Positions 4,486 through 63,309 of a DNA stretch of 64,000 nt are shown here, one piece after another. Source of the stretch: Natronobacterium haloterrestre (GTDB taxonomy: Archaea > Halobacteriota > Halobacteria > Halobacteriales > Natrialbaceae); assembly GCF_900112205.1 (NCBI RefSeq), contig NZ_FOKW01000002.1:186001-250000 (forward strand), written 5' to 3'. How positions within the stretch are numbered: position 1 is the first letter of the stretch; every line of letters begins with the position of its first letter. A program made the position numbers and the translations under genes. The notes under the pieces were generated by a model. That model worked only from the letters and a program-made list of their open reading frames with translations, was not told the origin of the DNA and ran no database searches.

Positions 4486-4607
4486 CGGGGCGAAACTTTC
4501 GGGGTTCGGCCCTGCTCTCTGGGGCCCGACTCGAGCGGTACGCACAGGCGCGTGACTCTCCGGTCGAGAGGAAAGGATAGAAGTCCGCGCTCGGCCAACT
4601 CCTTTCC

Positions 4608-5906: not shown

Positions 5907-5918
5907 CGCGGCGGTCTA

Positions 5919-5950
<32 letters not shown>

Positions 5951-5978
5951 ATTTCGCAGTCGTTACGCCCTTGCCCCC

Positions 5979-6236
5979 TCAACGTTCTTCCGTCCGCTCG
6001 AGTCGACCGATCGCCGGAAACCGATCCCCGGAGCCGGAGCCTCCGGGGGCCGTGCCCGTTCCGGACGTCTCCGCTGTGTCGAGCCTTCCGTGATCGCCGG
6101 AGCCACCCCGCTCGATGTCCGCTCGCTCGACCGCGTGCCCCGTTTCGCGAAAGTGTTCGAGCATCGCCCGATCCAGTGCCGTCGACTCCCCCGACGTTTC
6201 CTGCCAGTCGCAGGTTCTGCAGTACGCGTCCCCCAC
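5979..6236 (-). CDS. Putative small zinc-finger protein
   Basis: A minus-strand frame, 85 residues from the GTG at 6236, or 119 from an ATG at 6338. It carries YCRTCDWQE, a Cys-X2-Cys pair, followed about 25 residues later by HFRETGH, a His-X5-His pair, and then a Gly/Ser-rich tail. This CxxC...HxxxxxH pattern recurs in small haloarchaeal zinc-finger proteins that I know only as uncharacterised families. Codon third positions are GC-rich. The start is uncertain: the ATG at 6338 would leave almost no room for promoters between it and the divergent HTH gene at 6354. If it is not a gene, then 5950-6353 has no coding content that I recognise. Confidence 0.42.
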   Translation of the reverse strand: MGDAYCRTCDWQETSGESTALDRAMLEHFRETGHAVERADIERGGSGDHGRLDTAETSGTGTAPGGSGSGDRFPAIGRLERTEER

Positions 6237-6353
6237 GACGGCATCGACGCGTGCACGTCCCGTGAACGAACTGGTTCTACATAGATGGGGTTGATGAGGG
6301 CGACCGATCGGTACAGGCACAGAATATTTTCCGATCACACCGATAGGACCGAT

Positions 6354-7091: not shown

Positions 7092-7133
7092 TCCGGGCCC
7101 ACCGTTAACTACGGGGCCGGTGTACGACGCCCG

Positions 7134-8633: not shown

Positions 8634-8740
8634 CTCCCGTGACGCGATCGGCCCTCGCCAAAGCGTACGTTTACGGTGCCGAGGCGGTTACCTCCGTCCA
8701 TGACCGACGACGCGAACGAACCCGAGGGGGTGTGGCGACG

Positions 8741-9235
8741 ATGACGGCCGCTGTGGGCGACCCCGGCCCCGACGAACTCCGGGAAGAGGCCGACGAACTC
8801 GAACGGATCGCCAGTGGGCTCGAGGACCTGATCGTCGAACTCCGGGACGAGCCCGTCAGGGACACCCGACTCGAGGGCCTGTACGACGAGGCGACGACGA
8901 GCGATCCGGGGATCTGGAACACCGTGACGGCGTTCATCGACGTCGAGGACGGCGAGGCGGTCGTCTCCGACGAGTCGAAGCTCGCCCAGGGATCGTGGGC
9001 GCCCGAGATCGTCGAGGACTGCGACGCGATGGTCACGATCGACATCCAGCGCGGGCTGATGCCCGACGACTTCGAGTACCTCGTCGGGAAGAAACTGGAA
9101 GACGAGATCACGGAGCTGCGCGAGGAGGCCGCGAAGATCCGCCAGCAGGCACACGAACTCGAACGAGAGCAAGAACGAGAGCGAGAGCGAGAACGAGAGC
9201 AAGAACGAGAGCAAGAGGAAAACGACGGCTCCTGA
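8741..9235 (+). CDS. Conserved-looking haloarchaeal hypothetical protein with charged tail
   Basis: About 164 residues from ATG 8741; an in-frame GTG at 8732 is possible. The first 125 residues look globular (DPGPDELREEADELERIASG, then IWNTVTAFIDVEDGE and GWAPEIV-like segments). The end is an arginine/glutamate repeat of the form EREQERERE, predicted to be a single charged helix or coiled coil. I recognise no domain and assign no function. A 14-codon frame (8700-8744) starts at the first ATG upstream and ends in an ATGA overlap with the 8741 start. It may be a leader peptide, or an accident. Confidence 0.6.
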   Translation: MTAAVGDPGPDELREEADELERIASGLEDLIVELRDEPVRDTRLEGLYDEATTSDPGIWNTVTAFIDVEDGEAVVSDESKLAQGSWAPEIVEDCDAMVTIDIQRGLMPDDFEYLVGKKLEDEITELREEAAKIRQQAHELEREQEREREREREQEREQEENDGS

Positions 9236-9283
9236 TCCCCGACCCCCTCGAGGCCAGCGTCGGCTCGCGGGAGGGTCGGACGG

Positions 9284-10261
9284 TTACTCCCCTCGCGACC
9301 CCGAGTCGGCCGGCGCGAGGGTGCGCGACTCCAGGTCGTCGAGGTCGTCGAACGGTCTCGCGACTTCCGTCGGCGGCCCGACGTCCCCCGGTCCCGGCTG
9401 GACGATCGGCGCGAGCGCCTCGAGCGTGTCCACCAGCCGCGGGCCCGGCCGGTTGAGGTAGTGGTCGCCGTCCATCGCCCAGACCCGGCCCTCCCGAACG
9501 GCCGTCAGGTCCGTCCATCCCTCGCGTTCGGTGAGGTCGGTCCGGTTCGCGGCCGTCTGCTCGAGGTCGAACCCGCAGGGGGCGACGATCACGACCTCGG
9601 GGTCGTAATCGCGGATTTCGTCCCACTCGCGGGGCCGGGACCGCTCGCCCGGCTCGGCCAGGCCGTACTCGCCGCCGGCCCACTCGACGAGTTCGGCCGT
9701 CCAGTGGCCGGCGATCATCGCCGGGTCGGTCCAGTCGAAGATCGCGACCCGCGGGCGCTCCTCGCTCTCGAGGCCCAGCCCGGCGGTGCGGTCCCTGACG
9801 GCGGCGATCCGTTCCTCGAGTTCCGTCCGGACCTCGCGGGCGCGCTCCTCGCGGCCCGTCGCCGCGCCGATGCGCTCCACGTCGGCGAGGACGTCCTCGA
9901 CGCTGTGGGGGTCCGTGGTCAGCAGTTCCGGATCGGCGTCGATCTCCGCGACGGCGTCGGCGACGACGGCCTCGTCGACCGCACAGACGTCGCACATCCC
10001 CTGGGTGACGATCAGGTCGGGGTCCAGCCGCTCGAGTGTGGCGACGTCGACCTCGTAGACGCCGTCCTCGTCCGCCGTCGTCTCGAGTACCTGTCGGTCG
10101 ATCTCCCCGCTCGAGGTGGCCGACTCGATGCGCGACCGGGTAACTGACGGCAGCGATTCGACCTCGGGGGGAAAGTCACACTCGTGAGAGACGCCGACGG
10201 GTTCGAGCCCGAGCGCGGCGACGATCTCCGTCGCCGACGGGAGCGTGGTAACGACGCGCAT
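9284..10261 (-). CDS. Cobalamin-binding-protein-like periplasmic-binding-fold protein (BtuF-like)
   Basis: A 325-residue protein from the ATG at 10261, where the conserved start MRVVTTLPSATEIVAALG begins; the frame extends further upstream without family similarity. Motifs seen are GVSHECDFP, LIVTQGMCDVCAVDE, and the second lobe with WTDPAMIAGHW and GEYGLAEPGE. This matches the class III substrate-binding fold of BtuF and related vitamin B12 binders. There is no signal peptide or lipobox, so it may work in the cytoplasm in corrinoid handling, or B12 may not be its ligand. No BtuC or BtuD gene is nearby. The TonB-independent archaeal context is consistent with a stand-alone protein. Confidence 0.78.
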   Translation of the reverse strand: MRVVTTLPSATEIVAALGLEPVGVSHECDFPPEVESLPSVTRSRIESATSSGEIDRQVLETTADEDGVYEVDVATLERLDPDLIVTQGMCDVCAVDEAVVADAVAEIDADPELLTTDPHSVEDVLADVERIGAATGREERAREVRTELEERIAAVRDRTAGLGLESEERPRVAIFDWTDPAMIAGHWTAELVEWAGGEYGLAEPGERSRPREWDEIRDYDPEVVIVAPCGFDLEQTAANRTDLTEREGWTDLTAVREGRVWAMDGDHYLNRPGPRLVDTLEALAPIVQPGPGDVGPPTEVARPFDDLDDLESRTLAPADSGSRGE

Positions 10262-49244: not shown

Positions 49245-50174
49245 ATGATCGCCTCGGATCGACGCGTGCTCGTGACGGGCGGGGCCGGTTTCATCGGCTC
49301 TCACCTCGTCGAGCGACTGCTGGCTGAGGGCAGCGACGTAACGGTCGTCGACGACTGTTCGAACGGCGACGCCGACCGGGTCCCCGACGGAGTCGACTTC
49401 GTCGAGGCCGACCTGACCGAACCCGACGCGCTCGCGGGCCACCTCGAGGGCGTCGACCTCGTCTTCCACCTCGCGGCGTCGAAACACGTCGACACCGACC
49501 GCCCGCACGGACAGTTCGACGACAACACGCGGATGACCCGCAACCTCCTCGAGGCGATGGCCGACGCCGGCGTGACCGACCTCGCCTACACCTCCTCGTC
49601 GACGGTCTACGGCGAGGCCCCGCGGCCGACGCCGGAGGATTACGCCCCCCTCGAGCCGATCAGCGCCTACGGGGCGAGCAAACTCGCCGACGAGGGGCTG
49701 CTCTCCGCGCGGACCCACAGCCACGACCTGACGGTCTGGACCTTCCGGTTCGCGAACGTCGTCGGCCCGCGCCTTCGGGGTGCAGTCATCCCCGATTTCA
49801 TCGAGAAACTCGAGGAGGATCCCGGGACGCTGACCATCCTCGGCGACGGCCGCCAGGAGAAGTCCTACCTCCACGTCGAGGACTGTCTCGACGCGATCCT
49901 CCACGCCATCGAACACGCAGACGACGCGATGAACACGTTCAACCTGGGTACGCGCACGACCACGTCGGTCGACCGGATCGCCGCCATCGTCGCCGACGAG
50001 ATGGACCTCGATCCCGACTTCGAGTACACCGGCGGCGACCGCGGCTGGACCGGCGACGTCCCGAAGATGCGCCTCTCGATCGAGAAGCTCTCGGCACTCG
50101 GCTGGGAGCCGACGCTCTCGAGCGACGAGGCGGTGCGGCGAGCGACCCGCGAGATCCTCGCGGAACTCCGTTGA
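49245..50174 (+). CDS. NAD-dependent nucleotide-sugar epimerase/dehydratase (GalE-like)
   Basis: A 309-residue extended SDR. NAD motif TGGAGFIGSH is at about residues 11-20, the catalytic Ser/Thr in YTSSSTVYGEA, Tyr-x3-Lys in ISAYGASKLADE, and the sugar-nucleotide site in FRFANVVGPR and LGDGRQEKSYLHVEDC. It probably interconverts UDP-sugars such as UDP-glucose and UDP-galactose. It lies 102 bases upstream of the UPF0104 gene and the GT75 gene, so it could supply the nucleotide sugar for this cluster. It has no TTTAGG operator itself. Function in this context is inference. Confidence 0.87.
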   Translation: MIASDRRVLVTGGAGFIGSHLVERLLAEGSDVTVVDDCSNGDADRVPDGVDFVEADLTEPDALAGHLEGVDLVFHLAASKHVDTDRPHGQFDDNTRMTRNLLEAMADAGVTDLAYTSSSTVYGEAPRPTPEDYAPLEPISAYGASKLADEGLLSARTHSHDLTVWTFRFANVVGPRLRGAVIPDFIEKLEEDPGTLTILGDGRQEKSYLHVEDCLDAILHAIEHADDAMNTFNLGTRTTTSVDRIAAIVADEMDLDPDFEYTGGDRGWTGDVPKMRLSIEKLSALGWEPTLSSDEAVRRATREILAELR

Positions 50175-50236: not shown

Positions 50237-50252
50237 TTTAGGTGGGCTTAAA
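50237..50252. promoter_or_regulatory. DtxR/IdeR-like operator 1 (one mismatch), UPF0104 promoter
   Basis: TTTAGG-TGGG-CTTAAA, an inverted repeat with one mismatch (CTTAAA for CCTAAA). It overlaps the predicted box A CTTAAATA and lies 25-40 bases before the ATG at 50277. Binding by an iron-dependent repressor would block the promoter. Confidence 0.65.
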
Positions 50253-50276
50253 TATCTGCGCTCGAGAGGGCGGAGT

Positions 50277-51413
50277 ATGAACGACGGTGGCGAGCGCGAC
50301 GGGTCAGGGGCCGACGAGGACGGATCGACAGGCGGGGGCATCGGTGCCGCCCTGACCCGCCGTCGGCTGACGATCGCCGGCACGATCCTCGTTCTCATCG
50401 GCCTGGCCGTCGCAGTTCGCGAGATCGACCTCGAGACGGTCGTCGCCGAGGTCGCGGGCGCGGACCCGCGGCTGCTCGCCGCCGCGATCGCCGTCTATCT
50501 CGTCTCGTGGCCGGTCCGCGGCCGGCGGTACGGCGACGTCCTCGCGGCGATGGGACGACGGGTCGGGACGCCGTTTCTCACCGCGGCGATCTTCGTGAGC
50601 CAGACCGCTAACCTCGCCGTTCCGGCGCGGGCCGGCGACGCGACGCGCGCGTACGTTGTCGCCCGGAAGGACGTCCCCTACACCGCCGGCTTCGCGTCGC
50701 TGACGGTCGAACGGCTCTTCGACCTGGCGACGATCGCCGCCCTCGCGGGGGTCGCGACCGGCTGGCTGGCGCTGCAGGGCGAGGCCGGGCCGCTCGACCT
50801 GGCGACGACCGGCGGTGCCCGGACCGCGCTCGTCGCCGCCTCGGCGGTCAGCACCGCGACCGTCGGCGTGGGGCTCGCGGTCGTCACCTCCGCCCGATCG
50901 GAGGTCGGGATCGCACCGTGGCTCCGTCGCCGCGTCGAGGGATCGCCGCGCCTCGAGGCGGCCCTCGATGCCCTGCTCGAGTTCGTCGCGGACGTCCAGC
51001 TCGTCGCCCGGAACCCGCGGGCGGCGCTGGCCGTCGGCGCGACCAGCCTGGTCGTGTGGCTGCTCGACGTGGTGACGGCCGTGCTCGTGCTCGCCGCGCT
51101 GGACAGCGGGCTCGCCGTCGGCTCCCTGCTCGCGGTCGGGACGCTCGCGGTCAGCGTCGGCAACCTCGCGAAGGTCCTGCCGCTGTCCCAGGGCGGCGTC
51201 GGGCTCTACGAGGCCGCGTTCACCGCGCTCGTGGTCGCGCTGACGCCGATCGGTGCGGGAACGGCACTCGCCGCGGCGATCGTCGACCACGCGCTGAAAA
51301 ACGCGGTGACGCTGGTCGGCGGCGGCGTCTCGGTCGCCGCGCTCGGACTCTCCCTGTCCGAGGCCGCCGGCGACGCGTCCGGATCGGGGGATTCCGGCAA
51401 CTTTTTAGGTTAG
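50277..51413 (+). CDS. UPF0104 / AglD-like integral membrane protein (possible flippase or lipid-sugar factor)
   Basis: A 378-residue protein with eight or so predicted membrane helices from residue 25 onward. Motifs typical of the LPG-synthase-TM / UPF0104 family: VPARAGDATRAYVVARKDVP, SLTVERLFDLATI, GNLAKVLPLSQGGVGLYEAAFT (core GGVGLYEAAFT). In haloarchaea the domain occurs in AglD, a dolichol-phosphate glycosyltransferase-linked protein. The acidic N-terminus (1-22) is cytoplasmic. The next operator overlaps its last codons. It is the first gene of the putative iron-controlled cluster. Confidence 0.82.
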   Translation: MNDGGERDGSGADEDGSTGGGIGAALTRRRLTIAGTILVLIGLAVAVREIDLETVVAEVAGADPRLLAAAIAVYLVSWPVRGRRYGDVLAAMGRRVGTPFLTAAIFVSQTANLAVPARAGDATRAYVVARKDVPYTAGFASLTVERLFDLATIAALAGVATGWLALQGEAGPLDLATTGGARTALVAASAVSTATVGVGLAVVTSARSEVGIAPWLRRRVEGSPRLEAALDALLEFVADVQLVARNPRAALAVGATSLVVWLLDVVTAVLVLAALDSGLAVGSLLAVGTLAVSVGNLAKVLPLSQGGVGLYEAAFTALVVALTPIGAGTALAAAIVDHALKNAVTLVGGGVSVAALGLSLSEAAGDASGSGDSGNFLG

Positions 51414-51419
51414 CCTAAA
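51404..51419. promoter_or_regulatory. DtxR/IdeR-like operator 2 (perfect), GT75 promoter
   Basis: TTTAGG-TTAG-CCTAAA, a perfect palindrome that extends to 8-base arms (51402-51421) and contains the bacterial DtxR half-site sequence TTAGGTTAGCCTAA. It overlaps the UPF0104 stop codon and ends 13 bases before the ATG at 51433. Confidence 0.8.
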
Positions 51420-51432
51420 AAATGGCGGAGTA

Positions 51433-52653
51433 ATGAGTCAGGACATCTGCGTCGTCGTTCCGACGATCCGCGAGTACGAATGCATGCGCTCGTACTTCGA
51501 GAACGCACGCGAGCACGGCTTCGACCTCTCGAGGCTGCACGTCGTCCTCGTGACCGAGGACTTCTGTGAGACCGACGAGATGGAACGGATGCTCGAGGAG
51601 GAGGACGTCTCGGGCGAGGTCTTCGACGGCTCCCGTCGCGAGGAGTGGTACGCCGAGCACGGCGTCGAGGAGTACGAACACGTCGTCCCGGCGGCGAGCC
51701 ACGCCGAGACGAGCTTCGGGCTGTTGTACATGTGGGCAAACGACGAGTTCGAGTACGGCTTCTTCATCGACGACGACACCCTCCCGAATCCCGAGGAGGA
51801 CTTCTTCGGCACGCACATGGAGAACCTCGCGTTCGAGGGCGAGATCGAGTCGGTCTCCTCGGACGAGAACTGGGTGAACGTCCTCTACCAGAACGCCGAT
51901 GAACACGGCCTCTACCCGCGGGGCTACCCCTACTCGGCGATGGACGAGACCGTCGAGACCGGCACGACCGAAATCGAGGGCGGGCAGGTCGTCGCCTCGC
52001 AGGGCCTGTGGACCAACGTCCCCGACCTGGACGCCGTTCGCATCCTCATGGACGGCGACCTCGAGGGGCAGGCCCAGACGCGCACGACGGCAGACGACTT
52101 CGGCGAGGATTTCGTCGCCGAGCGGGGTAACTACCTCACCGTCTGCTCGATGAACCTCGCCTTCCGCCGCGAGGTGATCCCCGCGTTCTACCAGCTTCCG
52201 ATGGACGACAACGAGTGGAACGTCGGCCGGTTCGACGACATCTGGTCGGGCGTGTTCCTCAAGCGAGCCTGCGACGTCCTCGGCAAGCGCATCTACAACG
52301 GCGCGCCGCTCTGTGAACACAACAAGGCGCCACGCAGCACCTTCGACGACCTCAACAACGAGGTGCCAGGGCTCGAGTTGAACGAGCACCTCTGGCGGAT
52401 CATCGACAGCGTGGAACCGGAGGTTCCACGGGCCGCTCAGCCGGCGGAGCCGTCTGAGGACGATGCGGGCGAAGACGCCGACTCCTACGCCGAGGTCTTC
52501 GAGGCGATGGCCCACGAACTCGCCGACGGCGACTGGGAGGAGTACAACAACGGAGCGTTCTTCAACTACGTCGGGGAACACATGCTCGACTGGCTCGAGT
52601 GCCTCGAGGCGCTCGACCGACCCGTCGCCGTTGCCGGGAATCGACGCCTATAA
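51433..52653 (+). CDS. GT75 / reversibly glycosylated polypeptide-like protein
   Basis: A 406-residue glycosyltransferase-fold protein (RGP family, often annotated alpha-1,4-glucan-protein synthase). Features: CVVVPTIREYECMRSYF at the start, a metal-binding IDDDTLPNPEEDFF motif (residues about 112-125), and TVCSMNLAFRREVIPAFYQLP and GRFDDIWSGVFLKRACD, which match plant UDP-arabinopyranose mutases. Plant RGPs autoglycosylate with UDP-sugars. Their role in haloarchaea is unknown. The C-terminus has an acidic extension after about residue 330. Preceded by a perfect TTTAGG operator. Confidence 0.85.
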   Translation: MSQDICVVVPTIREYECMRSYFENAREHGFDLSRLHVVLVTEDFCETDEMERMLEEEDVSGEVFDGSRREEWYAEHGVEEYEHVVPAASHAETSFGLLYMWANDEFEYGFFIDDDTLPNPEEDFFGTHMENLAFEGEIESVSSDENWVNVLYQNADEHGLYPRGYPYSAMDETVETGTTEIEGGQVVASQGLWTNVPDLDAVRILMDGDLEGQAQTRTTADDFGEDFVAERGNYLTVCSMNLAFRREVIPAFYQLPMDDNEWNVGRFDDIWSGVFLKRACDVLGKRIYNGAPLCEHNKAPRSTFDDLNNEVPGLELNEHLWRIIDSVEPEVPRAAQPAEPSEDDAGEDADSYAEVFEAMAHELADGDWEEYNNGAFFNYVGEHMLDWLECLEALDRPVAVAGNRRL

Positions 52654-52674
52654 GTGTATTTAGGCGAGCCTAAA
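52648..52674 (+). promoter_or_regulatory. fbpA promoter with DtxR/IdeR-like operator 3 (52659-52674)
   Basis: The box A CTATAAGTG (52648-52656) is followed at once by TTTAGG-CGAG-CCTAAA (52659-52674, perfect palindrome), 5 bases before the ATG. The operator covers the expected transcription start, so a bound repressor would occlude initiation. Confidence 0.82.
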
Positions 52675-52678
52675 CCAT

Positions 52679-53800
52679 ATGACTCGAGATCACGACGCGA
52701 CGGGTCGGCGGGCCTTCCTCGCCGGCTCGGCCGCGCTCGGTACGGCAGGCCTGGCCGGGTGTACAGGCCTCATCGGTGGCGAGGACGAGGAGACCGAGTC
52801 GTCGGTCTTCGGCCAGATCGGCTCCGGCCGCGCGGGCCGACCCGAACCCGAAGGGACGAAGATCGAAGACCTGCCCGACCTCGAGGGCGAACTCCACGTC
52901 TACTCCGGTCGCGGCGAGTTCCTCGTCGGCACGCTGCTCGACGACCTCGAGGAGTACTACGAGGACTTCACGATCGAGCCCCGCTACGGCAACTCCTCCG
53001 AACTGGTCAACCAGATCGCCGAAGAGGGCGACGGGACGCCCGCCGACGTCTTCTACACCGTCGACGCGGCCGCGCTCGGCGCGCTGGCCGACGAGGGTCG
53101 GTCCCGGGAACTGTCCGACGACGTCCTCGAGATGGTCCGTGAGGAGTTCCGGACCGACAACTGGATCGGTACGTCCGGGCGCGCTCGAACGGTGCCGTAC
53201 AACACCGACGCCCTCTCCGAAGACGACATGCCCGACGACATCCAGGCGTACACCGACTTCGACGGCGACCTCGGCTGGGCGCCGTCCTACGGCTCCTGCC
53301 AGGGGTTCGTCACCGCGATGCGGCTGCTCGAGGGCGAGGAGACTACCCGCGAGTGGCTCGAGGGAGTCACCGAGTCGGGCATCACCGACTACAACGACGA
53401 GTTCGCGGTCTGTCAGGCGATCGCCGACGGCGAGATCGACGCCGGCTTCACGAACCACTACTACATCCAGCGCGTTCTCGACGGCTCGCCGGACGCCCCC
53501 ATCGCCACCTCGTTCACGGAGGGTGACGCCGGCGCTGTCTTCGACGTCGCCGGCGCGGCCGTCACCGACGCCGCGGACGATCCCGAACTCGCCGAGAACT
53601 TCATTCGCCACCTCCTCTCGGCCCAGGCCCAGGAGTACTTCGCCACCGAGACCTTCGAGTACCCGCTGATCCCCGACGTCGAACCGGTGGGCGAACTGCC
53701 GACGATCGACGAACTCGACGTCCCGGACCTCGACCTCTCGCGGCTGTCGGAACTCGAGCCGACGATCGACCTCATGCGAGAGGTCGGTATCGACACCTGA
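52679..53800 (+). CDS. Ferric-iron ABC transporter substrate-binding lipoprotein (FbpA-like)
   Basis: A 373-residue protein. A twin-arginine motif (GRRAFLAG) and the lipobox LAGC (Cys at residue 27) give a Tat-exported lipoprotein. The mature protein is a type II periplasmic-binding fold with the class 1 features HVYSGRGEFLV, ADVFYTVDAAALGALA, TSGRARTVPYNT and the family's Tyr-Tyr-containing HYYIQRVL that can bind iron. It captures Fe3+ or a ferric chelate outside the cell. It has a perfect TTTAGG operator. The FbpB-like permease lies 5.6 kb downstream. No ATPase subunit is encoded in the window. Confidence 0.87.
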   Translation: MTRDHDATGRRAFLAGSAALGTAGLAGCTGLIGGEDEETESSVFGQIGSGRAGRPEPEGTKIEDLPDLEGELHVYSGRGEFLVGTLLDDLEEYYEDFTIEPRYGNSSELVNQIAEEGDGTPADVFYTVDAAALGALADEGRSRELSDDVLEMVREEFRTDNWIGTSGRARTVPYNTDALSEDDMPDDIQAYTDFDGDLGWAPSYGSCQGFVTAMRLLEGEETTREWLEGVTESGITDYNDEFAVCQAIADGEIDAGFTNHYYIQRVLDGSPDAPIATSFTEGDAGAVFDVAGAAVTDAADDPELAENFIRHLLSAQAQEYFATETFEYPLIPDVEPVGELPTIDELDVPDLDLSRLSELEPTIDLMREVGIDT

Positions 53801-53833
53801 TCGACGCCTGACTGCCGATCCCCTTCTCCCGTA

Positions 53834-56038
53834 ATGTCCGATCGCCTTCTTCGTCTCCTCTCGCGTCCGATCCGGAGCGATCGCGTCGATCGGCCCACCC
53901 TGTACGCGTTCTGTATCGCCGCCCTCGCCGGCGCGGCCGTCTTCGTTGTCGCGACACAGCTGTTTCCCTACCACTCGAGCAACGACGACGAGGCGGTCTA
54001 TCTCATGCAGGCCGCCATGCTACTCGAGGGGCAACTCGAGCTGTACGTCGGCGACCTCGTCGACGCGTTCCGGCCCTGGTTCTTCGTCGAGGACGGCGGC
54101 CGGCTCTACCCGAAGTACTCGCCGGTGCCCGCGGCGATGTACGCCGCCACGATGGCCGTCTTCGGCGAGCCCCGCGTGACGCTCGCGATCGTCGCGGCGG
54201 GCAACGCGGCACTCACGTACGTTCTGGGATCGCAGGTCTTCGACCGACGGGTGGGCGTCGTCGCCGCCGCGCTCTTCGCGGCCTCCCCGCTTGCACTGCT
54301 GACCTCGTCGGTCTTTCTCCCGTACGCGCCGACGACGCTCTTCAATCTCGCGTTCGCCGTCGCGTACCTGCGAGGCGTCCGCACCGGGCGGCTCCGCGAC
54401 GCGGCGCTCGCGGGCGTCGCGATCGGGCTGGCCTTCTTCGCCAGGCCCTACACCGCCGTCCTGTTTGCCGCGCCGTTCATCGGACACGCGCTGTGGCAGG
54501 TGACCGGCTCGCTTCGCCGGGAGTGGGACGGGACGGTCGCGCTCCGGGCGCTGCCGGATCCGGTCCGGCGACACGCCGTCACCGGGCTGTTCGGGCTGGC
54601 CTTCGTCGGCCTGACGCTCGCGTACAACGCCCGCGTAACCGGCTCGCCGCTGCTCTTTCCCTACGAGGCGTTCGCGCCGCTGGACGGTCCCGGCTTCGGC
54701 TACCGCGAGATCCAGGGTCACTCGATCGAGTACACGCCGGCCCTGGCGCTCGAGGCCAACGGTTACGTCCTCTGGTACTTCGCGACACGGTGGTTCGTCG
54801 CGGGGCCGATCGGGACGCTCGCGGCGCTGGCCGGTCTCGTGCTCGCGCTGAGACGGTGGGCCCCGTCGACGTCGGGCCTCGAGCGGACGCTCGACGGGGA
54901 CCGAACCGCCGGGATCCTCCTGGCCGCCCTGTTCGTCACCGTCCCGCTCGGCAACCTCGCGTTCTGGGGCAACTTCAACGTCCTCGCGACGATGAACGAC
55001 CCGACGAACGGGCTGATCTCGCAGTTCGGCCCCTTCTACCACTTCGACCTGCTCGCGCCGCTGTCGATCTTCGCCGCGTTCGGCTTCGTCGCGGGCTGGC
55101 GACGCCTCCGCGACGCGGCGATCCGTGAGCGGATCCCGGAACCGACCGCGCGGAACGCTCGCCGCCTCGCGCTCGCCGCCCTCGTCACCAGCGCCCTCGT
55201 CGTCGGGGGCGTCAACGCCGCCCTGCTCGCCGGGCCGGTCGAACGCAACGCGGCTCACACCGAGCGGTACGAGACGGCCTACGAACCGTTCGAGCAACGG
55301 GACGTCGAGAACGCGCTCGTCTTCCTGCCGACGCCGTACGGCCAGTGGCAGGGCCACCCCTTCCAGGCGCTTCGCAACGATCCCGGCCTCGACGGCGAGG
55401 CCGTCTACGCCCTCGAGGGCGACCCCGAACACGACTTCGCGGTGCTCGAGGCCTATCCCGACCGGGACTACTACCGCTATGACTACCGCGGCGAGTGGAC
55501 GGCCGGGCCGGACGAACCCGTGATCCCGAAACTCGAGCCGCTCGAGGTCCGGGAGGGCGAAACCCTCGCCGGCGAGACGGTCGTCGGCGTCCCGGATCGA
55601 GTCTCCCGGGCGTCGATCCGCCTCGCGAGCAACGGCTCGACGGCCTGGCACACCGTCGACGACCCGGGCGATTCGCTCGCCGTCGACTGGGAACTGCGGG
55701 CCGGGGCCGGCGACGCGACCGACAACGGCACCGCGCCGGCCGTCGCCTCCCTCGACGTGCCGGACGAGGGAAGCGCGGCCCCCTCGGTGGCGCTCGAGGA
55801 GACGGACGAGGTAGTCCTGACGATCACGCTCGTCCAGTCCGACGGAGGGACGTTCACCTACCGCCAGGCGACGACCGTCCGGGCGACCGACGACGGGATT
55901 GCCGCCGTCTGGCCCCCCGAACGGACCGGTTGCCGACTGGTCACCGAGTGCGGGCGCGAGGGCACGTACCTGCCCGATCGGCCGGACGTCCACCCCGAGT
56001 GGGAGCGGTTCGAGACGCGACTCGAGCCGGCGGACTGA
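53834..56038 (+). CDS. Membrane glycosyltransferase, GT39/ArnT-PMT-like
   Basis: A 734-residue protein with about ten to twelve predicted membrane helices to residue 480 and a soluble C-terminal domain. The first loop has the DDE motif in SSNDDEAVYLMQAAMLLEG (17-residue stretch), as in PMT/ArnT glycosyltransferases that use polyprenyl-phosphate sugars as donors. The C-terminal region has beta-rich segments with ASIRLASNGSTAWH and an acidic tail with GCRLVTECGREG. It lies 33 bases after fbpA, so it is likely in the same iron-controlled unit. Acceptor unknown: a lipid, protein or glycan at the outer face. Confidence 0.8.
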   Translation: MSDRLLRLLSRPIRSDRVDRPTLYAFCIAALAGAAVFVVATQLFPYHSSNDDEAVYLMQAAMLLEGQLELYVGDLVDAFRPWFFVEDGGRLYPKYSPVPAAMYAATMAVFGEPRVTLAIVAAGNAALTYVLGSQVFDRRVGVVAAALFAASPLALLTSSVFLPYAPTTLFNLAFAVAYLRGVRTGRLRDAALAGVAIGLAFFARPYTAVLFAAPFIGHALWQVTGSLRREWDGTVALRALPDPVRRHAVTGLFGLAFVGLTLAYNARVTGSPLLFPYEAFAPLDGPGFGYREIQGHSIEYTPALALEANGYVLWYFATRWFVAGPIGTLAALAGLVLALRRWAPSTSGLERTLDGDRTAGILLAALFVTVPLGNLAFWGNFNVLATMNDPTNGLISQFGPFYHFDLLAPLSIFAAFGFVAGWRRLRDAAIRERIPEPTARNARRLALAALVTSALVVGGVNAALLAGPVERNAAHTERYETAYEPFEQRDVENALVFLPTPYGQWQGHPFQALRNDPGLDGEAVYALEGDPEHDFAVLEAYPDRDYYRYDYRGEWTAGPDEPVIPKLEPLEVREGETLAGETVVGVPDRVSRASIRLASNGSTAWHTVDDPGDSLAVDWELRAGAGDATDNGTAPAVASLDVPDEGSAAPSVALEETDEVVLTITLVQSDGGTFTYRQATTVRATDDGIAAVWPPERTGCRLVTECGREGTYLPDRPDVHPEWERFETRLEPAD

Positions 56039-56158
56039 TCCGGTCTGCGGTACGATTTTCCGGCCTGACCGGGAAAGTTCGCGGTCGGCAACACGTAGTT
56101 CGCACGAGAACCGATCACCGAACCAATACTTTACGTGTCGGCGTGCGTAGTCGGTCGC

Positions 56159-56266
56159 ATGACCGATGCCGGGTCCGAGCGCTCGACCGACGACGACGAG
56201 GAGGAGAGTTCAGGCTGGTTCGATATCGTGCTCGACGTCGTCCTCGAGTCGCTCGGGTTCTTCTAG
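56159..56266 (+). CDS. Small acidic protein with C-terminal amphipathic helix (35 aa)
   Basis: ATG at 56159 gives an acidic segment (TDDDEEESSGWF) and a hydrophobic end (DIVLDVVLESLGFF). CCAATACTTTACG (56123-56135) sits 25-35 bases upstream and makes a good box A, so a leaderless transcript is likely. The stop TAG (56264-56266) overlaps the stop of the convergent GT2 gene in a shared CTAG (56263-56266). Function unknown. Short proteins of this type can act as membrane-associated regulators; that is inference. Confidence 0.55.
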   Translation: MTDAGSERSTDDDEEESSGWFDIVLDVVLESLGFF

Positions 56267-57081
56267 TCCGTCCGGTGTGGTAGCTCCCGAAGCCGCTCCT
56301 CGAGCGCGACCTTGACGATCGAGCGGCCGATCTCGAGGCCGCCCTGGATCGGGTCGAGCTTGGTTTCGCCGGCGCGCTCGCGGTACTCGATCGGGTGTTC
56401 GCGGATATCGTAGCCGCGCATCAGCGGCCGGATCAGGAGCTCGGCCGAGAGACCGGTGTTTTCGGTCCACTCGATCGACTCGACGACCTCGCGGCGGTAG
56501 GCGCGCATCCCCGTCGTGGTGTCGTGCACACGGGTCCCCATCAGGACGCTCGCGACCGCCGCGAAGAGGTGGTTGCCAAGCCGATTGAACGCGGGCATCG
56601 CCTCCGCGCCGTGGTAGAGCCGGTCGCCGCTGACCACGTCGTACCCCCGGTTGATCAACTCGAGGAACTCCGGAAGCTGTTCCATCGGGTAGGTGTCGTC
56701 ACAGTCGGCCGTGACGACGATCGGCCGGTCGGGTTCTAAGATCGCCGCGCGGACGGCGACGCCGTACCCCTGGGGCTCCTGTTCGATCACGGTCGCGCCG
56801 TGCTCGCGGGCGATCTCGGGCGTGCGGTCCGAGGAGCCGTCGACGCAGACGACCTCCGCTTTCCCGTCCGTGATCTCCTCGACGTCCGACAGCACGGTGC
56901 CGATGGCTTCCTCCTCGTTGTACGTTCCCATGACGACGCTGACGTCCTCGAACGTGAACCGGTCGCTGCCGGCCCCGTCGATCGCCTCGGGCGTCGATCC
57001 GTCCGCGTCGCTTGCGTCTTCGTCTGTCGGTGCGATAGCGTCCCGCGTTCCGTCCCCGCCTGTCGTGTCCGTACTACTCAT
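56263..57081 (-). CDS. GT2 family glycosyltransferase (dolichol-phosphate-sugar-synthase-like)
   Basis: A 272-residue enzyme. After an acidic leader (1-42) it starts SVVMGTYNEEEAIG, then has VVCVDGSSDRTPEI, the DxD motif in VTADCDDTYPM, and later HDTTTGMRAYRREV and GLSAELLIRPLMRGYDI, all typical of DPM1/GtrB-type GT2 enzymes. No C-terminal membrane helices are seen, so it works at the inner face. It would transfer a sugar from a nucleotide donor to dolichol phosphate, which the GT39-like enzyme could then use. Operator 4 precedes it. Confidence 0.87.
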   Translation of the reverse strand: MSSTDTTGGDGTRDAIAPTDEDASDADGSTPEAIDGAGSDRFTFEDVSVVMGTYNEEEAIGTVLSDVEEITDGKAEVVCVDGSSDRTPEIAREHGATVIEQEPQGYGVAVRAAILEPDRPIVVTADCDDTYPMEQLPEFLELINRGYDVVSGDRLYHGAEAMPAFNRLGNHLFAAVASVLMGTRVHDTTTGMRAYRREVVESIEWTENTGLSAELLIRPLMRGYDIREHPIEYRERAGETKLDPIQGGLEIGRSIVKVALEERLRELPHRTD

Positions 57082-57113
57082 TGGCGGTACTCTCGTCCGG
57101 TCGCACTTAGGTT

Positions 57114-57129
57114 TTTAGGTTTGCCTAAA
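57114..57129. promoter_or_regulatory. DtxR/IdeR-like operator 4 (perfect), GT2 promoter
   Basis: TTTAGG-TTTG-CCTAAA, a perfect palindrome that extends by one base on each side. It lies 33-48 bases upstream of the GT2 ATG, in the 60-base gap after the GMC oxidoreductase stop. It gives the GT2 gene its own iron-responsive start within the minus-strand gene series. Box A is probably CTAAAAACC, overlapping the arm. Confidence 0.8.
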
Positions 57130-57141
57130 ACAGGTCGGCGG

Positions 57142-58770
57142 TCAGACCGATTCGAGGACGTGATCCGTCGCCTTCAGTGCCAGCGTGGCGATCGTCAGCG
57201 TCGGGTTCATCGCCCCACCGGTCGGGAAGACGGAACTCGAGGCGATCCAGCAGTTCTCGAGGTCGTGGGTCCGCAGGTCGGGACCGACGACGCTCTCCGT
57301 CGGGTCCGTTCCCATCCGCGTCGTCCCCATGTGGTGGTAGGCCGGGCCGGTGTCCTCGGGTCCGACCTGCCAGGTGATCTCCGCGCCCAGTTCCTCGAGG
57401 AGTTCCCGCTGGATCTCGTTGACGCGTTCGATGGTCCGCAGCGCCCGGTCGCCCACGTTCCAGTGGACGTCCGGCACCGGATTGCCGCGGTCGTCGGTGC
57501 GGTCGTAGTCGAGCGCGACGTAGCTGTCCTCGCGGGGGAGTTGCTCGACCAGCGCCCCCAGGCCGACGTGGTTCCCGTACTCCGACCGGAGCCGCTCGAG
57601 CAGGTCGTCGCCCCAGTCGTCGCCGGAAAGCGCCATCTCGACCGGCGAGGGGCCGTCGTAGTTGAAGAACTCGAGTTTGAACGGCGCGAACTCCGCGTCG
57701 GCCCCGTCGTAGAACTGGTGGGACTCGCTGGTGAGGAAGCCGACGTGGTTCTGTCGCGTCGGTTCGTCGAGCAGGCCGCCCATCCCCGCGAAGAGGTGGT
57801 CCATGAAGTACCGCCCGACCAGGCCGCTCGAGTTCGCGAGCCCGTCGGGGTAGTGGCTCGACTCCGAGAGCAACAGCAGACGCGGGGTTTCGACGCCGCC
57901 GCAGGCGATCACGAAGGCGTCGGCCGCCTGGCGGTACTCTCCGTCGGGCGTCGCGTAGACGGCCGCGTCGATCGCGTCCGGCCCGTGCTCGAGTCGCTGG
58001 ACGGGCGCGCGGTCGATCACGGTCGCGCCCTTGCTCTCGGCCCGCTCGACGTGGACCGTCGCGTCGTACTTCGCGCCGGAGGGACAGACCGGCTGGCAGG
58101 TGCCGTAGCCGACGCAGGCGCTCCGGTCGTCGTAGGGCTCGGAGTTGCGGGCGTTGGGGACCGAGTGCATCTCGATCCCGAGTTCGTCGCAGGCCTCGGC
58201 GAACAGCCCGTCGCTGTAGGACGGCGGGAACGCCTCCATCGGGAACGGCTCCTCGCGGGGCGGCGCGAACGGGTTGTCCTCGCCGCCGGCGACGCCGAGT
58301 TCCCGCTCGGCCTCGGCGTAGTAGGGACGGAGGTCGTCGTACTCGAGGGGCCAGTCGACGCCGACGCCCCGGGCCGTCTCGGAGCGGAAGTCGTCCTCGT
58401 GCAGGCGCATCACCATCCCCTGCCAGTGCAGCGTCGAGCCGCCGACACCTTTCACGCGGGCGTGGTTGAGCGGATAGAACCACTCGCCGCTCGCCGAGTG
58501 GGCGTCCCGCTCGGGGTCGCCGTCCCAGACGTCCGGCCGGTCGTATGCGGGCCGGATCGCACGCTCCTGCCGGGCGAGCCTGTCGTCGAAATCGAAGCGC
58601 GGCCCCGCCTCGAGGACGACGACTTCCCGGCCGGCCTGGGCGAGTCGCTCCGCGACGATGCCGCCGGCCGGTCCCGCGCCGATCACGCAGACATCGGCGT
58701 CCTCGACGGGCGAGCGGTCGGCCGCGCCGTCGGCGGGGCTTGCGGATTCGGCCGGGGGTCGCCCGCTCAT
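57142..58770 (-). CDS. GMC family flavin oxidoreductase
   Basis: A 542-residue flavoprotein. The FAD motif CVIGAGPAGGIVAERLAQAG (20 residues) is near residue 30. GMC-type signatures include VGGSTLHWQGMVMRL and the C-terminal GPAYHHMGTTRMG with His (active-site base region) and CWIASSSVFPTGGAMNPTLT. It has no signal peptide. Together with the upstream subunit-3-like gene it resembles gluconate 2-dehydrogenase, an enzyme that oxidises a sugar or alcohol and passes electrons to the membrane. Cytochrome subunit is absent. It starts 13 bases after the upstream gene stop. Confidence 0.88.
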   Translation of the reverse strand: MSGRPPAESASPADGAADRSPVEDADVCVIGAGPAGGIVAERLAQAGREVVVLEAGPRFDFDDRLARQERAIRPAYDRPDVWDGDPERDAHSASGEWFYPLNHARVKGVGGSTLHWQGMVMRLHEDDFRSETARGVGVDWPLEYDDLRPYYAEAERELGVAGGEDNPFAPPREEPFPMEAFPPSYSDGLFAEACDELGIEMHSVPNARNSEPYDDRSACVGYGTCQPVCPSGAKYDATVHVERAESKGATVIDRAPVQRLEHGPDAIDAAVYATPDGEYRQAADAFVIACGGVETPRLLLLSESSHYPDGLANSSGLVGRYFMDHLFAGMGGLLDEPTRQNHVGFLTSESHQFYDGADAEFAPFKLEFFNYDGPSPVEMALSGDDWGDDLLERLRSEYGNHVGLGALVEQLPREDSYVALDYDRTDDRGNPVPDVHWNVGDRALRTIERVNEIQRELLEELGAEITWQVGPEDTGPAYHHMGTTRMGTDPTESVVGPDLRTHDLENCWIASSSVFPTGGAMNPTLTIATLALKATDHVLESV

Positions 58771-58783
58771 GCGTTCACCCCCG

Positions 58784-59332
58784 TCACGGTTCCGGCCCCC
58801 GCTGGTAGGTGTCCATCCCGCCGGGGTGTCCCTGCGGGTTCTCGATGCCGACGAGTTCGCCGCCGGTCGGCGAGGCGTACAGCGCCAGCAACAGTTCGTT
58901 GACGACGTAGTACCGGACCCGCTCGGCGGTCGTCCCGTCGGGGTCCTCGTCGGCCGTGTCGGCCCCCACTTCCCGGAGGAACGACTCGCGGCCGCCGGCC
59001 GAGAGCGTCGCGAACCGGGCGCCGTACCACGCCTCGGCCAACTCGTCGACTTTTGCGACCGTCTCGTCCAGCGCGGTCGCGTGGGTCGGATCCTCGAGTC
59101 GGCCCTCGAGGAAGGCCCCCACGAACTCCTCGATGCCGGTCACCTCCCGTGGATAGACGACCTCGGCGGCAGCGAGCAGCGTCTCCCGGATCCGGTCGGC
59201 GTCGACGGTCTCCGCCCGGGCGTCCGCGTCCCCGCTTGCGCCCCAGTCCGACCGGTCGAGGCCGGCCACCGCGGCCCCGCCGACCCCCAGCGCGGCGAGC
59301 GCCGCGACCGCATCCCGTCTTGTCAGCTCCAT
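58784..59332 (-). CDS. Gluconate 2-dehydrogenase subunit 3-like, Tat-exported
   Basis: A 182-residue protein. The N-terminus MELTRRDAVAALAALGVGGA carries a twin-arginine signal and a hydrophobic stretch, so export through Tat is expected. The rest matches subunit 3 of gluconate 2-dehydrogenase (YPREVTGIEEFVGAFLEGRL, EVVYPRE). In the known complexes this small subunit is the only one with a signal peptide and it carries the folded flavin subunit along. The pair could therefore act outside the membrane. Its start is 9 bases from operator 5. Confidence 0.82.
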   Translation of the reverse strand: MELTRRDAVAALAALGVGGAAVAGLDRSDWGASGDADARAETVDADRIRETLLAAAEVVYPREVTGIEEFVGAFLEGRLEDPTHATALDETVAKVDELAEAWYGARFATLSAGGRESFLREVGADTADEDPDGTTAERVRYYVVNELLLALYASPTGGELVGIENPQGHPGGMDTYQRGPEP

Positions 59333-59340
59333 ACGTTCGG

Positions 59341-59356
59341 ATTAGGCAAACCTAAA
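59341..59356. promoter_or_regulatory. DtxR/IdeR-like operator 5 (one mismatch), divergent dehydrogenase / fbpB promoter
   Basis: ATTAGG-CAAA-CCTAAA lies between two divergent genes. On the minus strand it is 9-24 bases before the dehydrogenase subunit ATG, with a box A (TATAAGG) just upstream of it; on the plus strand CTTATACC (59359-59366) precedes the FbpB-like permease by about 50 bases. One palindrome may therefore control both directions. Confidence 0.75.
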
Positions 59357-59412
59357 CCCTTATACCCGTTGAAACGGGATTTCCGAACACGAACTCACTC
59401 CCGACTACCCCT

Positions 59413-61044
59413 ATGAAATCTCTCCTCTCAGTCCGCCGTTATACGTCGAACGACGAACTGCCGCTCGGGCTGACGCTGCTGTCGGGGGCCATCGCCGCGG
59501 CGATGCTGTTTCCGCTGACGTGGCTCCTCGTCGAGGCCACCCGGGTCGACACCGGCCGCGCGTGGGAGATGTTCGTCCGGACCGAGACCCTCGAAATCCT
59601 CACCAACAGTCTCCTGTTGATGGCTGCGGTGACCCTCTTTTCCGTGCTGCTCGGCGTTCCCCTGGCCTGGCTCACCGTCCAGACGGACCTCCCCTTCCGC
59701 CGGTTCTGGTCCGTCGTCGTCGCCCTGCCGCTGGTCGTCCCCAGTTACATCGGCGCGTTCGCGTTCGTCTCGGCTTTCGGCCCTCGTGGGGAGTTCCAGT
59801 CGATCCTCGAGCCACTGGGCGTCGAACAACTCCCCGAGATCTACGGATTGAGCGGTGCGACGCTGGTCATCACGCTCTACACCTATCCCTACGTCTACCT
59901 GACGACCCGCGCCGCCCTCCTCTCGTTCGATACGACGCTGCTCGACGCTGCCCGGACGCTCAACCACGACACCTGGACCGCGTTCCGCCGTGTCACGCTC
60001 CCGCAGATCCGTCCCGCGGTCGTCGCCGGTGCCCTGCTCGCGGCGCTGTACTCCGTCTCCGACTTCGGGACGCCCGCGATCATGCAACTCCCGGTGTTCA
60101 CCCGCCAGATCTACGTCGAGTTCAACGCCTGGAACCGGGACTATGCCTCGCTGCTCTCCCTCCAACTGCTCGCGATCGTACTCGTCGTGCTGGCACTGGA
60201 GTGGCGCGTCCGGCGGGGCGACTCGAGTCGCGGCGGCGGTGGCGGCGAGGGAACGGGCGGCGGTCCGGTCGTCGAACTCGGCGCCTGGCGCTGGCCGGCG
60301 ATGGCGCTGCCCGCGGCGGTGACGGGGATCGCGCTCGCGGTCCCGCTGTGGATCCTCGGGCTCTGGCTCGTCACCGCCGACCCGAACGCCAGGCCCGAAC
60401 TGGCGTTCGAACTCGAGTACGCGATGAACTCCGTGCTGGTGGCCGGCGCGGCCGCACTGGTGGCCGTCCTCGCCGCCCTGCCGGTGGCGTACTTCGCCGC
60501 CCGGAACGACTCACTGGTCTCGACCGTGCTCGAGCGGGCCACGTACGTCGGCTTCGCGGTGCCGGGCATCGTCCTGGGGCTGGCACTGGTCTACTTCGCG
60601 ACCGGCTACGAGTCGCTGAACCTCTCGTTCGCCCCGACGCTCTACCAGACGCTGCCGCTTTTGATCTTCGCCTACGTGGTCCGCTTCATGCCCCAGGCCG
60701 TCGGCTCGATCCGGACCACGACGCTGCAGGTCGACCCCAAACTGGTCGAGGCCGCCCGCACGCTCGGCGAGACGCCGACCCGGACGTTCCGGAAGATCAC
60801 ATTGCCGCTGATCGCGCCGGGGATGACCGCCGGCGCTGCGCTCGTGTTCCTGACGACGATGAAGGAGTTGCCCGCGACGCTGTTTCTCCGGCCGACGGGC
60901 TTCGACACCCTCGTCACCGTCATCTGGCGGGCCCAGGAGGCCGCCTACTTCCAGTACGCCGCGATCCCTGCACTCATGCTGCTCGTCGTGTCGGGACTCT
61001 CGATGGTCGTGCTCCTCTCGCAGGGGGGCCGCGAGGGCCTCTAA
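59413..61044 (+). CDS. Ferric-iron ABC transporter permease (FbpB-like, two fused domains)
   Basis: A 543-residue permease of about 12 predicted membrane helices in two homologous halves. Each half has an EAA loop: LDAARTLNHDTWTAFRRVTLP near residues 176-196 (core LDAARTLNHDTW) and VEAARTLGETPTRTFRKITLP near 450. Such fused permeases form a complete channel with one ATPase dimer, as in FbpB/SfuB. The ATPase is missing here. The partner is the FbpA-like lipoprotein at 52679. Its end overlaps that of the convergent SRAP gene by four bases. Confidence 0.9.
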   Translation: MKSLLSVRRYTSNDELPLGLTLLSGAIAAAMLFPLTWLLVEATRVDTGRAWEMFVRTETLEILTNSLLLMAAVTLFSVLLGVPLAWLTVQTDLPFRRFWSVVVALPLVVPSYIGAFAFVSAFGPRGEFQSILEPLGVEQLPEIYGLSGATLVITLYTYPYVYLTTRAALLSFDTTLLDAARTLNHDTWTAFRRVTLPQIRPAVVAGALLAALYSVSDFGTPAIMQLPVFTRQIYVEFNAWNRDYASLLSLQLLAIVLVVLALEWRVRRGDSSRGGGGGEGTGGGPVVELGAWRWPAMALPAAVTGIALAVPLWILGLWLVTADPNARPELAFELEYAMNSVLVAGAAALVAVLAALPVAYFAARNDSLVSTVLERATYVGFAVPGIVLGLALVYFATGYESLNLSFAPTLYQTLPLLIFAYVVRFMPQAVGSIRTTTLQVDPKLVEAARTLGETPTRTFRKITLPLIAPGMTAGAALVFLTTMKELPATLFLRPTGFDTLVTVIWRAQEAAYFQYAAIPALMLLVVSGLSMVVLLSQGGREGL

Positions 61045-61866: not shown

Positions 61867-63108
61867 TTATGGATTCGACTTGTCCGTCGACTCGTCCTCG
61901 GACCCGTTCGGGTACGGAGTGTACGTACCGTTTGGAGTCATCGTCCCGGACTTCAGGGCGTATTGGCCGACGCCCCTCTCCCGAGACGTCTGTTGGCCCC
62001 GGGAGAGATAGGTATCTGCTACGTTCTTGGCTGCGATGTAGTCCGCGTGACCTCGGCAGCCACACTCCTGACATTCGAACTGATCGCGTGACGTTCGATT
62101 GTTTTCGTGCACGAATCCGCATTCGGGACACCGCCGGCTCGTATTCCTCGGGGACGTGGTGTCGACGAACAGTCCTGCAGCCCTCGCCTTGTATTTCACG
62201 TACTCGTAGAGCGTGTCGAACGCCCACTCCGAGTGCCAGTCTGCTTCCGGAAGCCGATCACGGATACCGTCCAGTTCTTCGAAAACGATACCGTCACAGC
62301 CGTGTCCTCGAGCTTCGTCGACGATACCGTTTGCCACGTCGTGGAGGGCGTGCTTTATGTACTCGGATTCGCGAGCACTCACACGCTCGAGCGTTCGATA
62401 GGCGTTTCGTGTTCCTTGCGCCTGTAGACCGTAGCGCACTCGCTCGAACTCGCGGCGTGCATGGCTCAGTTCGCCAGCCGAGAAAAACTGTGCAGTACTG
62501 GTAACCGCAATCTCGGCCACCCCGAGATCCACTCCGAGAACCGTTCCGTTCTCGATCGGTGGATCGGTTCGTTTCGGTGTTCGAAATCCGAGGTGGAGAA
62601 ACCAGTCACCGTCCCGGTAGTGGAGCGTCGATTCCGTCAGTTCCCACTCGTCGTCCTCGAGATACTGGTACTGGTAGCCATCGTCGTCGGGGAGTTCGAG
62701 ACGTGCACGAACTCGAGAATGGGAATCACACGTCGCGAGCGACACTTCTTCTTCCTCTTCGAACACGGTCATCGTCCGCGCGTCGAACGTCATTGACTCC
62801 GACGTGAACTCGGGTCGAGTAGCGTGCTTTCCGTCTTTCCTGCGTTCGATCCCCGACTTGATCGCGCGGGCAACGTGATGAGTCGCGAGAACCGCGTGTT
62901 GGCTCCCGAGTTCGGTTTCTTCTCGGATCCGATCGTACGCGAGACGTTGGACGGCGGATGCACAATCACACGTTCCCCACGCCATCCTCGATGCGATATT
63001 ACACGCTTCGAGCCACTCGGAGATCGTCCGTTCGAGTAGTTCTGACTGTGACGATGAGACTGATACACGGGTAATAGCGGTGCGACGCTGGTACTCGTCT
63101 CCCGTCAC
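61867..63108 (-). CDS. TnpB-like protein without recognisable element ends
   Basis: A 413-residue TnpB from a GTG at 63108. RuvC residues are intact: Asp194 in LGVDLGVAE, Glu277 in IVFEEL and Asp356 in HADYIAAKN. The zinc ribbon has Cys327, Cys330, Cys346 and Cys349. The N-terminal 50 residues differ from the copy at 24306, with several extra cysteines (ACNIASR, CDCASA). No CCCAC...GTGGG hairpins flank it, unlike the first copy. Two small stems (61903-61912 and 61911-61929) lie near its 3' end. It may be a domesticated or decayed element, or an immobile RNA-guided nuclease. It sits 121 bases upstream of tRNA-Ser on the same strand. Confidence 0.88.
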   Translation of the reverse strand: MTGDEYQRRTAITRVSVSSSQSELLERTISEWLEACNIASRMAWGTCDCASAVQRLAYDRIREETELGSQHAVLATHHVARAIKSGIERRKDGKHATRPEFTSESMTFDARTMTVFEEEEEVSLATCDSHSRVRARLELPDDDGYQYQYLEDDEWELTESTLHYRDGDWFLHLGFRTPKRTDPPIENGTVLGVDLGVAEIAVTSTAQFFSAGELSHARREFERVRYGLQAQGTRNAYRTLERVSARESEYIKHALHDVANGIVDEARGHGCDGIVFEELDGIRDRLPEADWHSEWAFDTLYEYVKYKARAAGLFVDTTSPRNTSRRCPECGFVHENNRTSRDQFECQECGCRGHADYIAAKNVADTYLSRGQQTSRERGVGQYALKSGTMTPNGTYTPYPNGSEDESTDKSNP

Positions 63109-63228: not shown

Positions 63229-63309
63229 CGCCAGGACTGGGATTTGAACCCAGAATCCCAAAGGGAACACGCTTTCCAGGCGTGCGCCTTACCGTTCGGC
63301 CATCCTGGC
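63229..63309 (-). tRNA. tRNA-Ser(GGA)
   Basis: An 81-nt cloverleaf on the minus strand. Acceptor GCCAGGA/TCCTGGC with discriminator G, D arm GCC/GGC with loop GAACGGTAA, anticodon stem CACGC/GCGTG with loop CTGGAAA (anticodon GGA), a long variable arm with CCC/GGG, and T arm CTGGG/CCCAG. The long variable arm and anticodon identify serine. CCA is not encoded. There is no intron. It decodes UCC and UCU. Confidence 0.95.

Follow-up and report, generated by a model that had tools for sequence, protein, structure and literature searches.

A probable iron-repressed dolichol-phosphate glycosylation module encoded among ferric-uptake genes in haloarchaea

The window analysed here, a stretch of 64,000 nt from Natronobacterium haloterrestre (contig NZ_FOKW01000002.1; coordinates are those of the window), harbours at 50237-61044 a cluster of eight genes of one arrangement, in which genes for lipid-linked glycosylation are interleaved with those of a ferric importer and of a sugar dehydrogenase. 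The cluster probably represents an iron-repressed dolichol-phosphate glycosylation module of haloarchaea, which would add a furanose to a surface acceptor. Its core consists of three genes, which encode (i) a GT75/RGP (reversibly glycosylated polypeptide) protein resembling nucleoside diphosphate (NDP)-pyranose mutases (51433-52653, plus strand; PF03214, 2.5e-17, 63.5 bits against a cut-off of 23.8); (ii) a GT-C membrane transferase (PMT_2, GT39-like; hereafter GT39) with a C-terminal DUF7846, assigned by profile and fold (53834-56038, plus strand); and (iii) a GT2 dolichyl-phosphate hexose transferase (56263-57081, minus strand; NF041391, 407.4 bits against a cut-off of 375).

These three genes are an obligate trio. 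In a sample of 119 relatives' genomes, GT75, the DUF7846 that marks the GT-C enzyme and a GT2 exceeding the cut-off of NF041391 were found in the same 56 genomes, which for GT75 represent 13 families, and were jointly absent from the other 63. Across the phylum, the Pfam model of GT75 matched 64 of 393 genomes, all within the window's own order. Linkage alone does not explain this co-occurrence, since the members of the trio are kept where they are unlinked: in six Haloferax genomes the GT2 gene is 87-105 kb away from that of GT75, and distances of 70 kb and 1.27 Mb separate the two parts of the cluster in G096 and G107, with both halves kept and both boxed (the box is described below; the Haloferax trio also has boxes). 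In the split genomes FbpA remains with GT75, and FbpB remains with GT2 and the dehydrogenase genes GMC and GDH3, a partition which argues for a role, or at the least a regulon, common to the two halves.

The promoters of the cluster carry a palindromic box, TTTAGG-N4-CCTAAA, for which up to one mismatch was allowed in the counts. The spacer is 4 bases long; with 6, the pattern matched nowhere. Five boxes were found in the cluster, three perfect and two with one mismatch, all heading transcription units: TTTAGGTGGGCTTAAA (50237-50252; one mismatch) upstream of the UPF0104 gene, TTTAGGTTAGCCTAAA (51404-51419; perfect) at 29 to 14 nt before the GT75 start codon, TTTAGGCGAGCCTAAA (52659-52674; perfect) upstream of the fbpA-GT39 unit, TTTAGGTTTGCCTAAA (57114-57129; perfect) upstream of the GT2 gene, and ATTAGGCAAACCTAAA (59341-59356; one mismatch) in the divergent promoter between GDH3-GMC and fbpB. 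In haloarchaeal genes without a leader, the core promoter would fall where the GT75 box lies, so a protein bound there would block transcription. The first-pass annotation had proposed one operator type for fbpA and the glycosylation genes, which holds for UPF0104, GT75, FbpA and GT2 but not for GT39, which has no operator of its own; GT39 starts 33 bp past the fbpA stop and is presumably transcribed from the fbpA promoter.

Both the gene arrangement and the boxes are widely conserved. Among 128 non-redundant loci of relatives, GT75 was accompanied by GT39 in 123, FbpA in 121, a syntenic FbpB in 108, GT2 in 95, GMC plus GDH3 in 68 and UPF0104 in 64, the last thus being an accessory member. These loci contained 466 box sites, versus 1 in 60 shuffled loci. 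A box was present before GT75 in 122 of 128 relatives, before FbpA in 112 of 121, before GT2 in 90 of 94 (and likewise at unlinked GT2 genes), before UPF0104 in 51 of 60 and before GDH3 in 54 of 69; none was found in the relatives' loci at GT39 (0 of 123), GMC, thermosome or SRAP. In many genomes (L057, L062 and L193-L198) the box at GT2 is asymmetric, TTTAGG-N4-CCAAAA, with one half altered alike across families. A gene order confined to one genome had been named at first pass as one outcome that would refute the proposal, but the linkage of the glycosyltransferase genes with FbpA and the boxes proved to be kept across haloarchaea. The genes that the first-pass annotation had named were likewise recovered in place and with the same family assignments, yet the set is larger than it had drawn, as the GDH3-GMC pair and FbpB also belong (they have the divergent box at 59341 in common). 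One proposed member was lost: the gene for a GalE-like SDR (49245-50174, plus strand), upstream of the cluster, has no box in the window and a box in only 1 of 48 relatives.

The GT75 protein is likely, from its residues and predicted fold, a pyranose-furanose mutase. It is related to MtdL in sequence (E-value, 6e-20) and in structure (template-modelling scores of 0.75/0.82 for the model). The key residues reported for MtdL are the DXD motif D109-D111, the acceptor arginine R159, the catalytic aspartates D195 and D260 and the metal histidine H287 (PMC9937993). In GT75, D113-115, R163, D198, R266, D269 and H296 are invariant in 58 haloarchaeal sequences; the exceptions among the residues of catalysis and metal binding in MtdL are D87 and Q229, replaced by H90 and M240, respectively, and both replacements are invariant in the same 58 sequences. 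A second, plant-like, full-length RGP/UAM (UDP-arabinopyranose mutase) is encoded in one haloarchaeon, G117 (L103, 1492-2472, minus strand; PF03214, 452 bits), beside exopolysaccharide-type glycosyltransferase genes. P10 and M240 of GT75 match this plant-like UAM, whereas S89, H90 and E42-D43-F44 differ, and the base-contact loop reads V-T-E-D-F-C in the window versus V-Q-D-G-D-P in the plant-like protein. The earlier suggestion that the sugar is a pentose such as arabinose is thus not sustained, as positions of the base and sugar pockets differ from both MtdL and the plant-like UAM. Extra copies of GT75, 59-61% identical to that of the window, were seen at L079 (6257-7411) and L080 (9248-10393), with no box or partner genes nearby.

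The remaining enzymes of the trio agree with the dolichol-phosphate pathway proposed at first pass, with GT2 passing the NCBIfam cut-off for 'dolichyl-phosphate hexose transferase' and GT39 modelled as a GT-C transferase. The latter assignment combines a GT-C fold with acidic residues of the first external loop, in an N50-x-D52-E53 motif that follows the first membrane helix and is invariant in 36 sequences. The model (predicted local distance difference test, 87) aligned with oligosaccharyltransferase (OST), Pmt4 and ArnT at Z of 25.5, 23.2 and 21.9, respectively, and was also close to dolichol-phosphate mannose (Dol-P-Man) transferases and arabinofuranosyltransferases (AftD, AftA and EmbB), fold matches within 1 Z being ties that allow no finer choice among GT-C families. 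The C-terminal DUF7846 is a beta domain that presumably lies outside the membrane, as the topology suggests. The accessory membrane protein (UPF0104/LPG_synthase_TM; 50277-51413, plus strand; PF03706, 3e-43; TIGR00374, flippase-like) is a putative flippase of lipid-linked sugar; its family, predicted to consist of flippases, occurs in archaea next to enzymes of the PMT and AglD-like types (PMC5898192).

Such a combination raises the question of an iron-regulated branch of the S-layer N-glycan, in which the trio would attach the last sugar in the manner of AglD, AglR and AglS. GT2, UPF0104 and a PMT-type transferase together are a known AglD-like arrangement in archaea (PMC5898192), and the GT-C fold is strongly like that of AglB/OST. 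We nevertheless consider this branch unlikely. GT2 lies above its own equivalog cut-off and far under that of the AglJ model (140.7 against 325), and a related DolP glycosyltransferase of Haloferax volcanii, HVO_1613, possibly the GT2 of that genus, has been reported outside N-glycosylation (PMC9943897). Moreover, no Agl gene was recognised in the identified part of the recurring neighbour families; some of the known Agl genes, however, lie outside clusters.

The sugar dehydrogenase is encoded on the minus strand by a GMC oxidoreductase gene of the FAD glucose/fructose dehydrogenase large-subunit type (57142-58770) and by a Gluconate_2-dh3 (GDH3) small-subunit gene with the twin-arginine signal MELTRRD (58784-59332; PF13618, 5e-9). 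The match of GMC to the glucose dehydrogenase catalytic subunit (PDB 6a2u_B, 1.6e-90) is full-length and includes C-X5-C-X3-C, which we take to be the [3Fe-4S] ligand spacing of the glucose/fructose dehydrogenase family. The pair would be exported by the twin-arginine translocation (Tat) pathway, GMC hitchhiking on the signal of the small subunit, and a boxed halocyanin of the same genome is a possible electron acceptor. The gene for this halocyanin, a halocyanin-like DUF5059 and copper-binding lipoprotein (L011, 4-1497, minus strand), follows a perfect box, which places a copper protein under the putative iron switch.

The presence of this pair under the same boxes, in 68 of the 128 loci, also brings up glycan-assisted iron capture as a counterpart of siderophores, whereby the trio would build an extracellular glycan with furanose residues, the dehydrogenase would turn sugars into aldonic acids, ferric iron would be retained at the surface by these acidic groups and FbpABC would import it. 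The glucose/fructose dehydrogenase type of the large subunit would suit such a role, as would the retention of the dehydrogenase with GT2 where the cluster splits. Yet the dehydrogenase is unlinked in 60 of the 128 loci, some genomes have the trio without FbpA, and a probable [3Fe-4S] enzyme would be an odd choice under iron starvation; we regard this capture scheme as quite unlikely.

The importer is represented in the window by an FbpA-type ferric-iron-binding lipoprotein (52679-53800, plus strand) and, through a profile match, by an FbpB-type iron ABC permease with two BPD_transp_1 stretches (59413-61044, plus strand). FbpA matches ferric-binding proteins of the PDB (9e-55; best match 7w3w, 8.6e-55), begins with a twin-arginine signal and lipobox and retains the conserved tyrosine pair in its NHYY motif. 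A boxed FbpC gene was found outside the window in the same genome, its product 59-71% identical to the in-cluster FbpC of other genera, so that the importer, which has no ATPase in the window, would be completed under the same switch.

Trio and importer can nonetheless be parted. In Halocatena marina, Halobacteriales archaeon YIM A00010 and Actinarchaeum halophilum (L173, L180 and L191, respectively), GT75-GT39-GT2 stands beside genes of acyl-CoA metabolism, and no FbpA homologue was found in these genomes at an E-value of 1e-15; conversely, an FbpA homologue, 37-50% identical, is present in 29 of the 33 genomes without the trio that were tested. Thus, trio and FbpABC form two separable modules that regulation connects, and the iron link is regulatory rather than obligate. 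The same two observations tell against the glycosylated iron-binding product suggested at first pass. Glycosylation by the trio of FbpA, or of some other iron-binding protein at the surface, to yield such a product in iron starvation would fit two observations: in most loci GT39 follows fbpA, alone or together with fbpB and fbpC, in the same orientation, and FbpA is an exported lipoprotein. Given the separability, we judge it very unlikely. The three trios without FbpA (around 4400-9700 of their loci) are preceded by a common block of genes of the SDR, carboxyl transferase and thiolase types (assigned in L173 and L191, and matched in length in L180), although their lineages differ, and this flank may point to transfer of the stretch between them as a unit.

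The nature of the box is suggested by its company. In the window's own genome, 18 sites with no more than one mismatch were found, versus 4 for a reversed control pattern. Besides those of the cluster, boxes precede genes for a FecCD permease, two Peripla_BP_2 (FhuD-type) lipoproteins, the FbpC-type ATPase, the halocyanin and a RIC-like protein (assigned from the start of its open reading frame only). A gene for a DUF7551/DUF7552 protein (L003, 505-1500, minus strand) has two perfect boxes in front, 35 bp apart. As the genes in its company are those of siderophore and ferric uptake, the box is probably a DtxR/Idr-type iron box read by a putative repressor, in agreement with the known DtxR/Idr control in haloarchaea. 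Control of the iron type, as first proposed, is thereby upheld, the same box heading the FecCD, FhuD-like, FbpC and halocyanin genes. A regulator of another metal (manganese or zinc) is a very unlikely reader of these boxes, for although MtdL needs Mn (PMC9937993), so that a Mn-dependent GT75 would fit a manganese switch, and Mn and Fe regulators are related by what is known of the DtxR family, the co-regulated genes are those of ferric and siderophore uptake and Haloferax fhu genes with a ferR signal have been described (PMC11349517).

Several points weigh against an iron-repressed furanose module. Iron control of these genes and their induction in starvation are predictions from the promoter boxes. 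In Halocatena marina, YIM A00010 and Actinarchaeum halophilum no recognisable box was found at the trio, though 4-10 perfect boxes occur elsewhere in each genome; iron control is therefore not universal. In the proteome of iron-starved Haloferax volcanii, a UPF0104 protein (HVO_1859) and a GalE (HVO_0655) were up 11.6-fold and 12.7-fold, respectively, among the strongest inductions (PMC11349517), yet these are at most candidate orthologues of the window genes and are not counted as support; in Haloferax, UPF0104 is matched best by a fusion of GT2 and UPF0104 whose gene has no box. Furthermore, no known NDP-furanose-using enzyme was found linked to the trio, and GT2 might instead take a pyranose while GT75 serves another transferase. 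Of the outcomes envisaged at first pass, a surface glycan altered in iron starvation remains the best reading, as the promoters suggest, and the glycosylated iron-binding product does not.

For the iron-repressed module, the following mechanism is proposed. With iron, a loaded repressor of the DtxR/Idr family would bind the boxes over the core promoters and shut the genes; iron starvation would release it and open them. GT75 would then turn a nucleotide sugar from pyranose to furanose via an arginine-bound intermediate, GT2 would load the sugar onto dolichol phosphate, UPF0104 may aid in flipping the lipid-linked sugar in those loci that encode it, and the GT-C enzyme with its DUF7846 would transfer the sugar to an acceptor at the surface, outside the membrane. 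The importer FbpABC and the FAD sugar dehydrogenase exported by Tat would be modules of their own, controlled by the same switch. If this is true, the response of archaea to iron starvation extends to their surface chemistry, and they own a GT75 route to a furanose via dolichol phosphate; both can be tested directly in Haloferax. Beyond the cluster, the window carries a gene for a TnpB/OrfB RNA-guided nuclease of an IS605-type element (61867-63108, minus strand), beside tRNA-Ser (63229-63309).

Each enzyme class of the module is known. However, no description of an obligate trio of GT75, GT2 and GT-C, set among the genes of a ferric importer and placed under iron boxes in 13 families, was found in the literature searched on haloarchaeal iron regulation, archaeal GT75 and galactofuranose, although the study of DtxR regulons in archaea by Leyn and Rodionov (2015) may list some of the genes as targets. 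Among known systems, the Dol-P-Man branch of AglD, AglR and AglS in Haloferax volcanii shares with the module a GT2 dolichol-phosphate sugar synthase, a UPF0104-type domain or flippase and an external PMT-type transferase, whereas the trio adds a GT75 mutase and iron boxes, has a GT2 of a different equivalog and shows no recognised Agl neighbours. MtdL/Hyg20 and plant UAM/RGP have their fold and catalytic residues in common with the haloarchaeal GT75, which however forms a clade of its own, is 33% identical to the plant-like UAM, carries H90 at the site of MtdL D87 and has E42-D43-F44 in its base loop; its partners belong to a dolichol-phosphate pathway, whereas MtdL and UAM serve antibiotic or plant wall synthesis.

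With the mycobacterial decaprenyl-phosphoryl-arabinofuranose (DPA) pathway of Emb and Aft, the module would share a common logic, namely a furanose carried on polyprenyl phosphate and its transfer outside by a GT-C enzyme, but mycobacterial DPA is made by other enzymes than those of the trio, and the likeness of the GT39 model to AftD, AftA and EmbB is at the fold level only. The bacterial FAD glucose/fructose dehydrogenases (6a2u and 7w2j) have the same GMC large subunit with C-X5-C-X3-C and the same Tat-signal small subunit as the window dehydrogenase, which differs in its iron boxes and in that no adjacent cytochrome c subunit gene was seen. Finally, FbpA, FbpB and the FbpC encoded elsewhere in the genome, all under iron boxes, correspond to the FbpABC ferric uptake system, from which the window departs in that its fbp genes are interleaved with those of glycosyltransferases.

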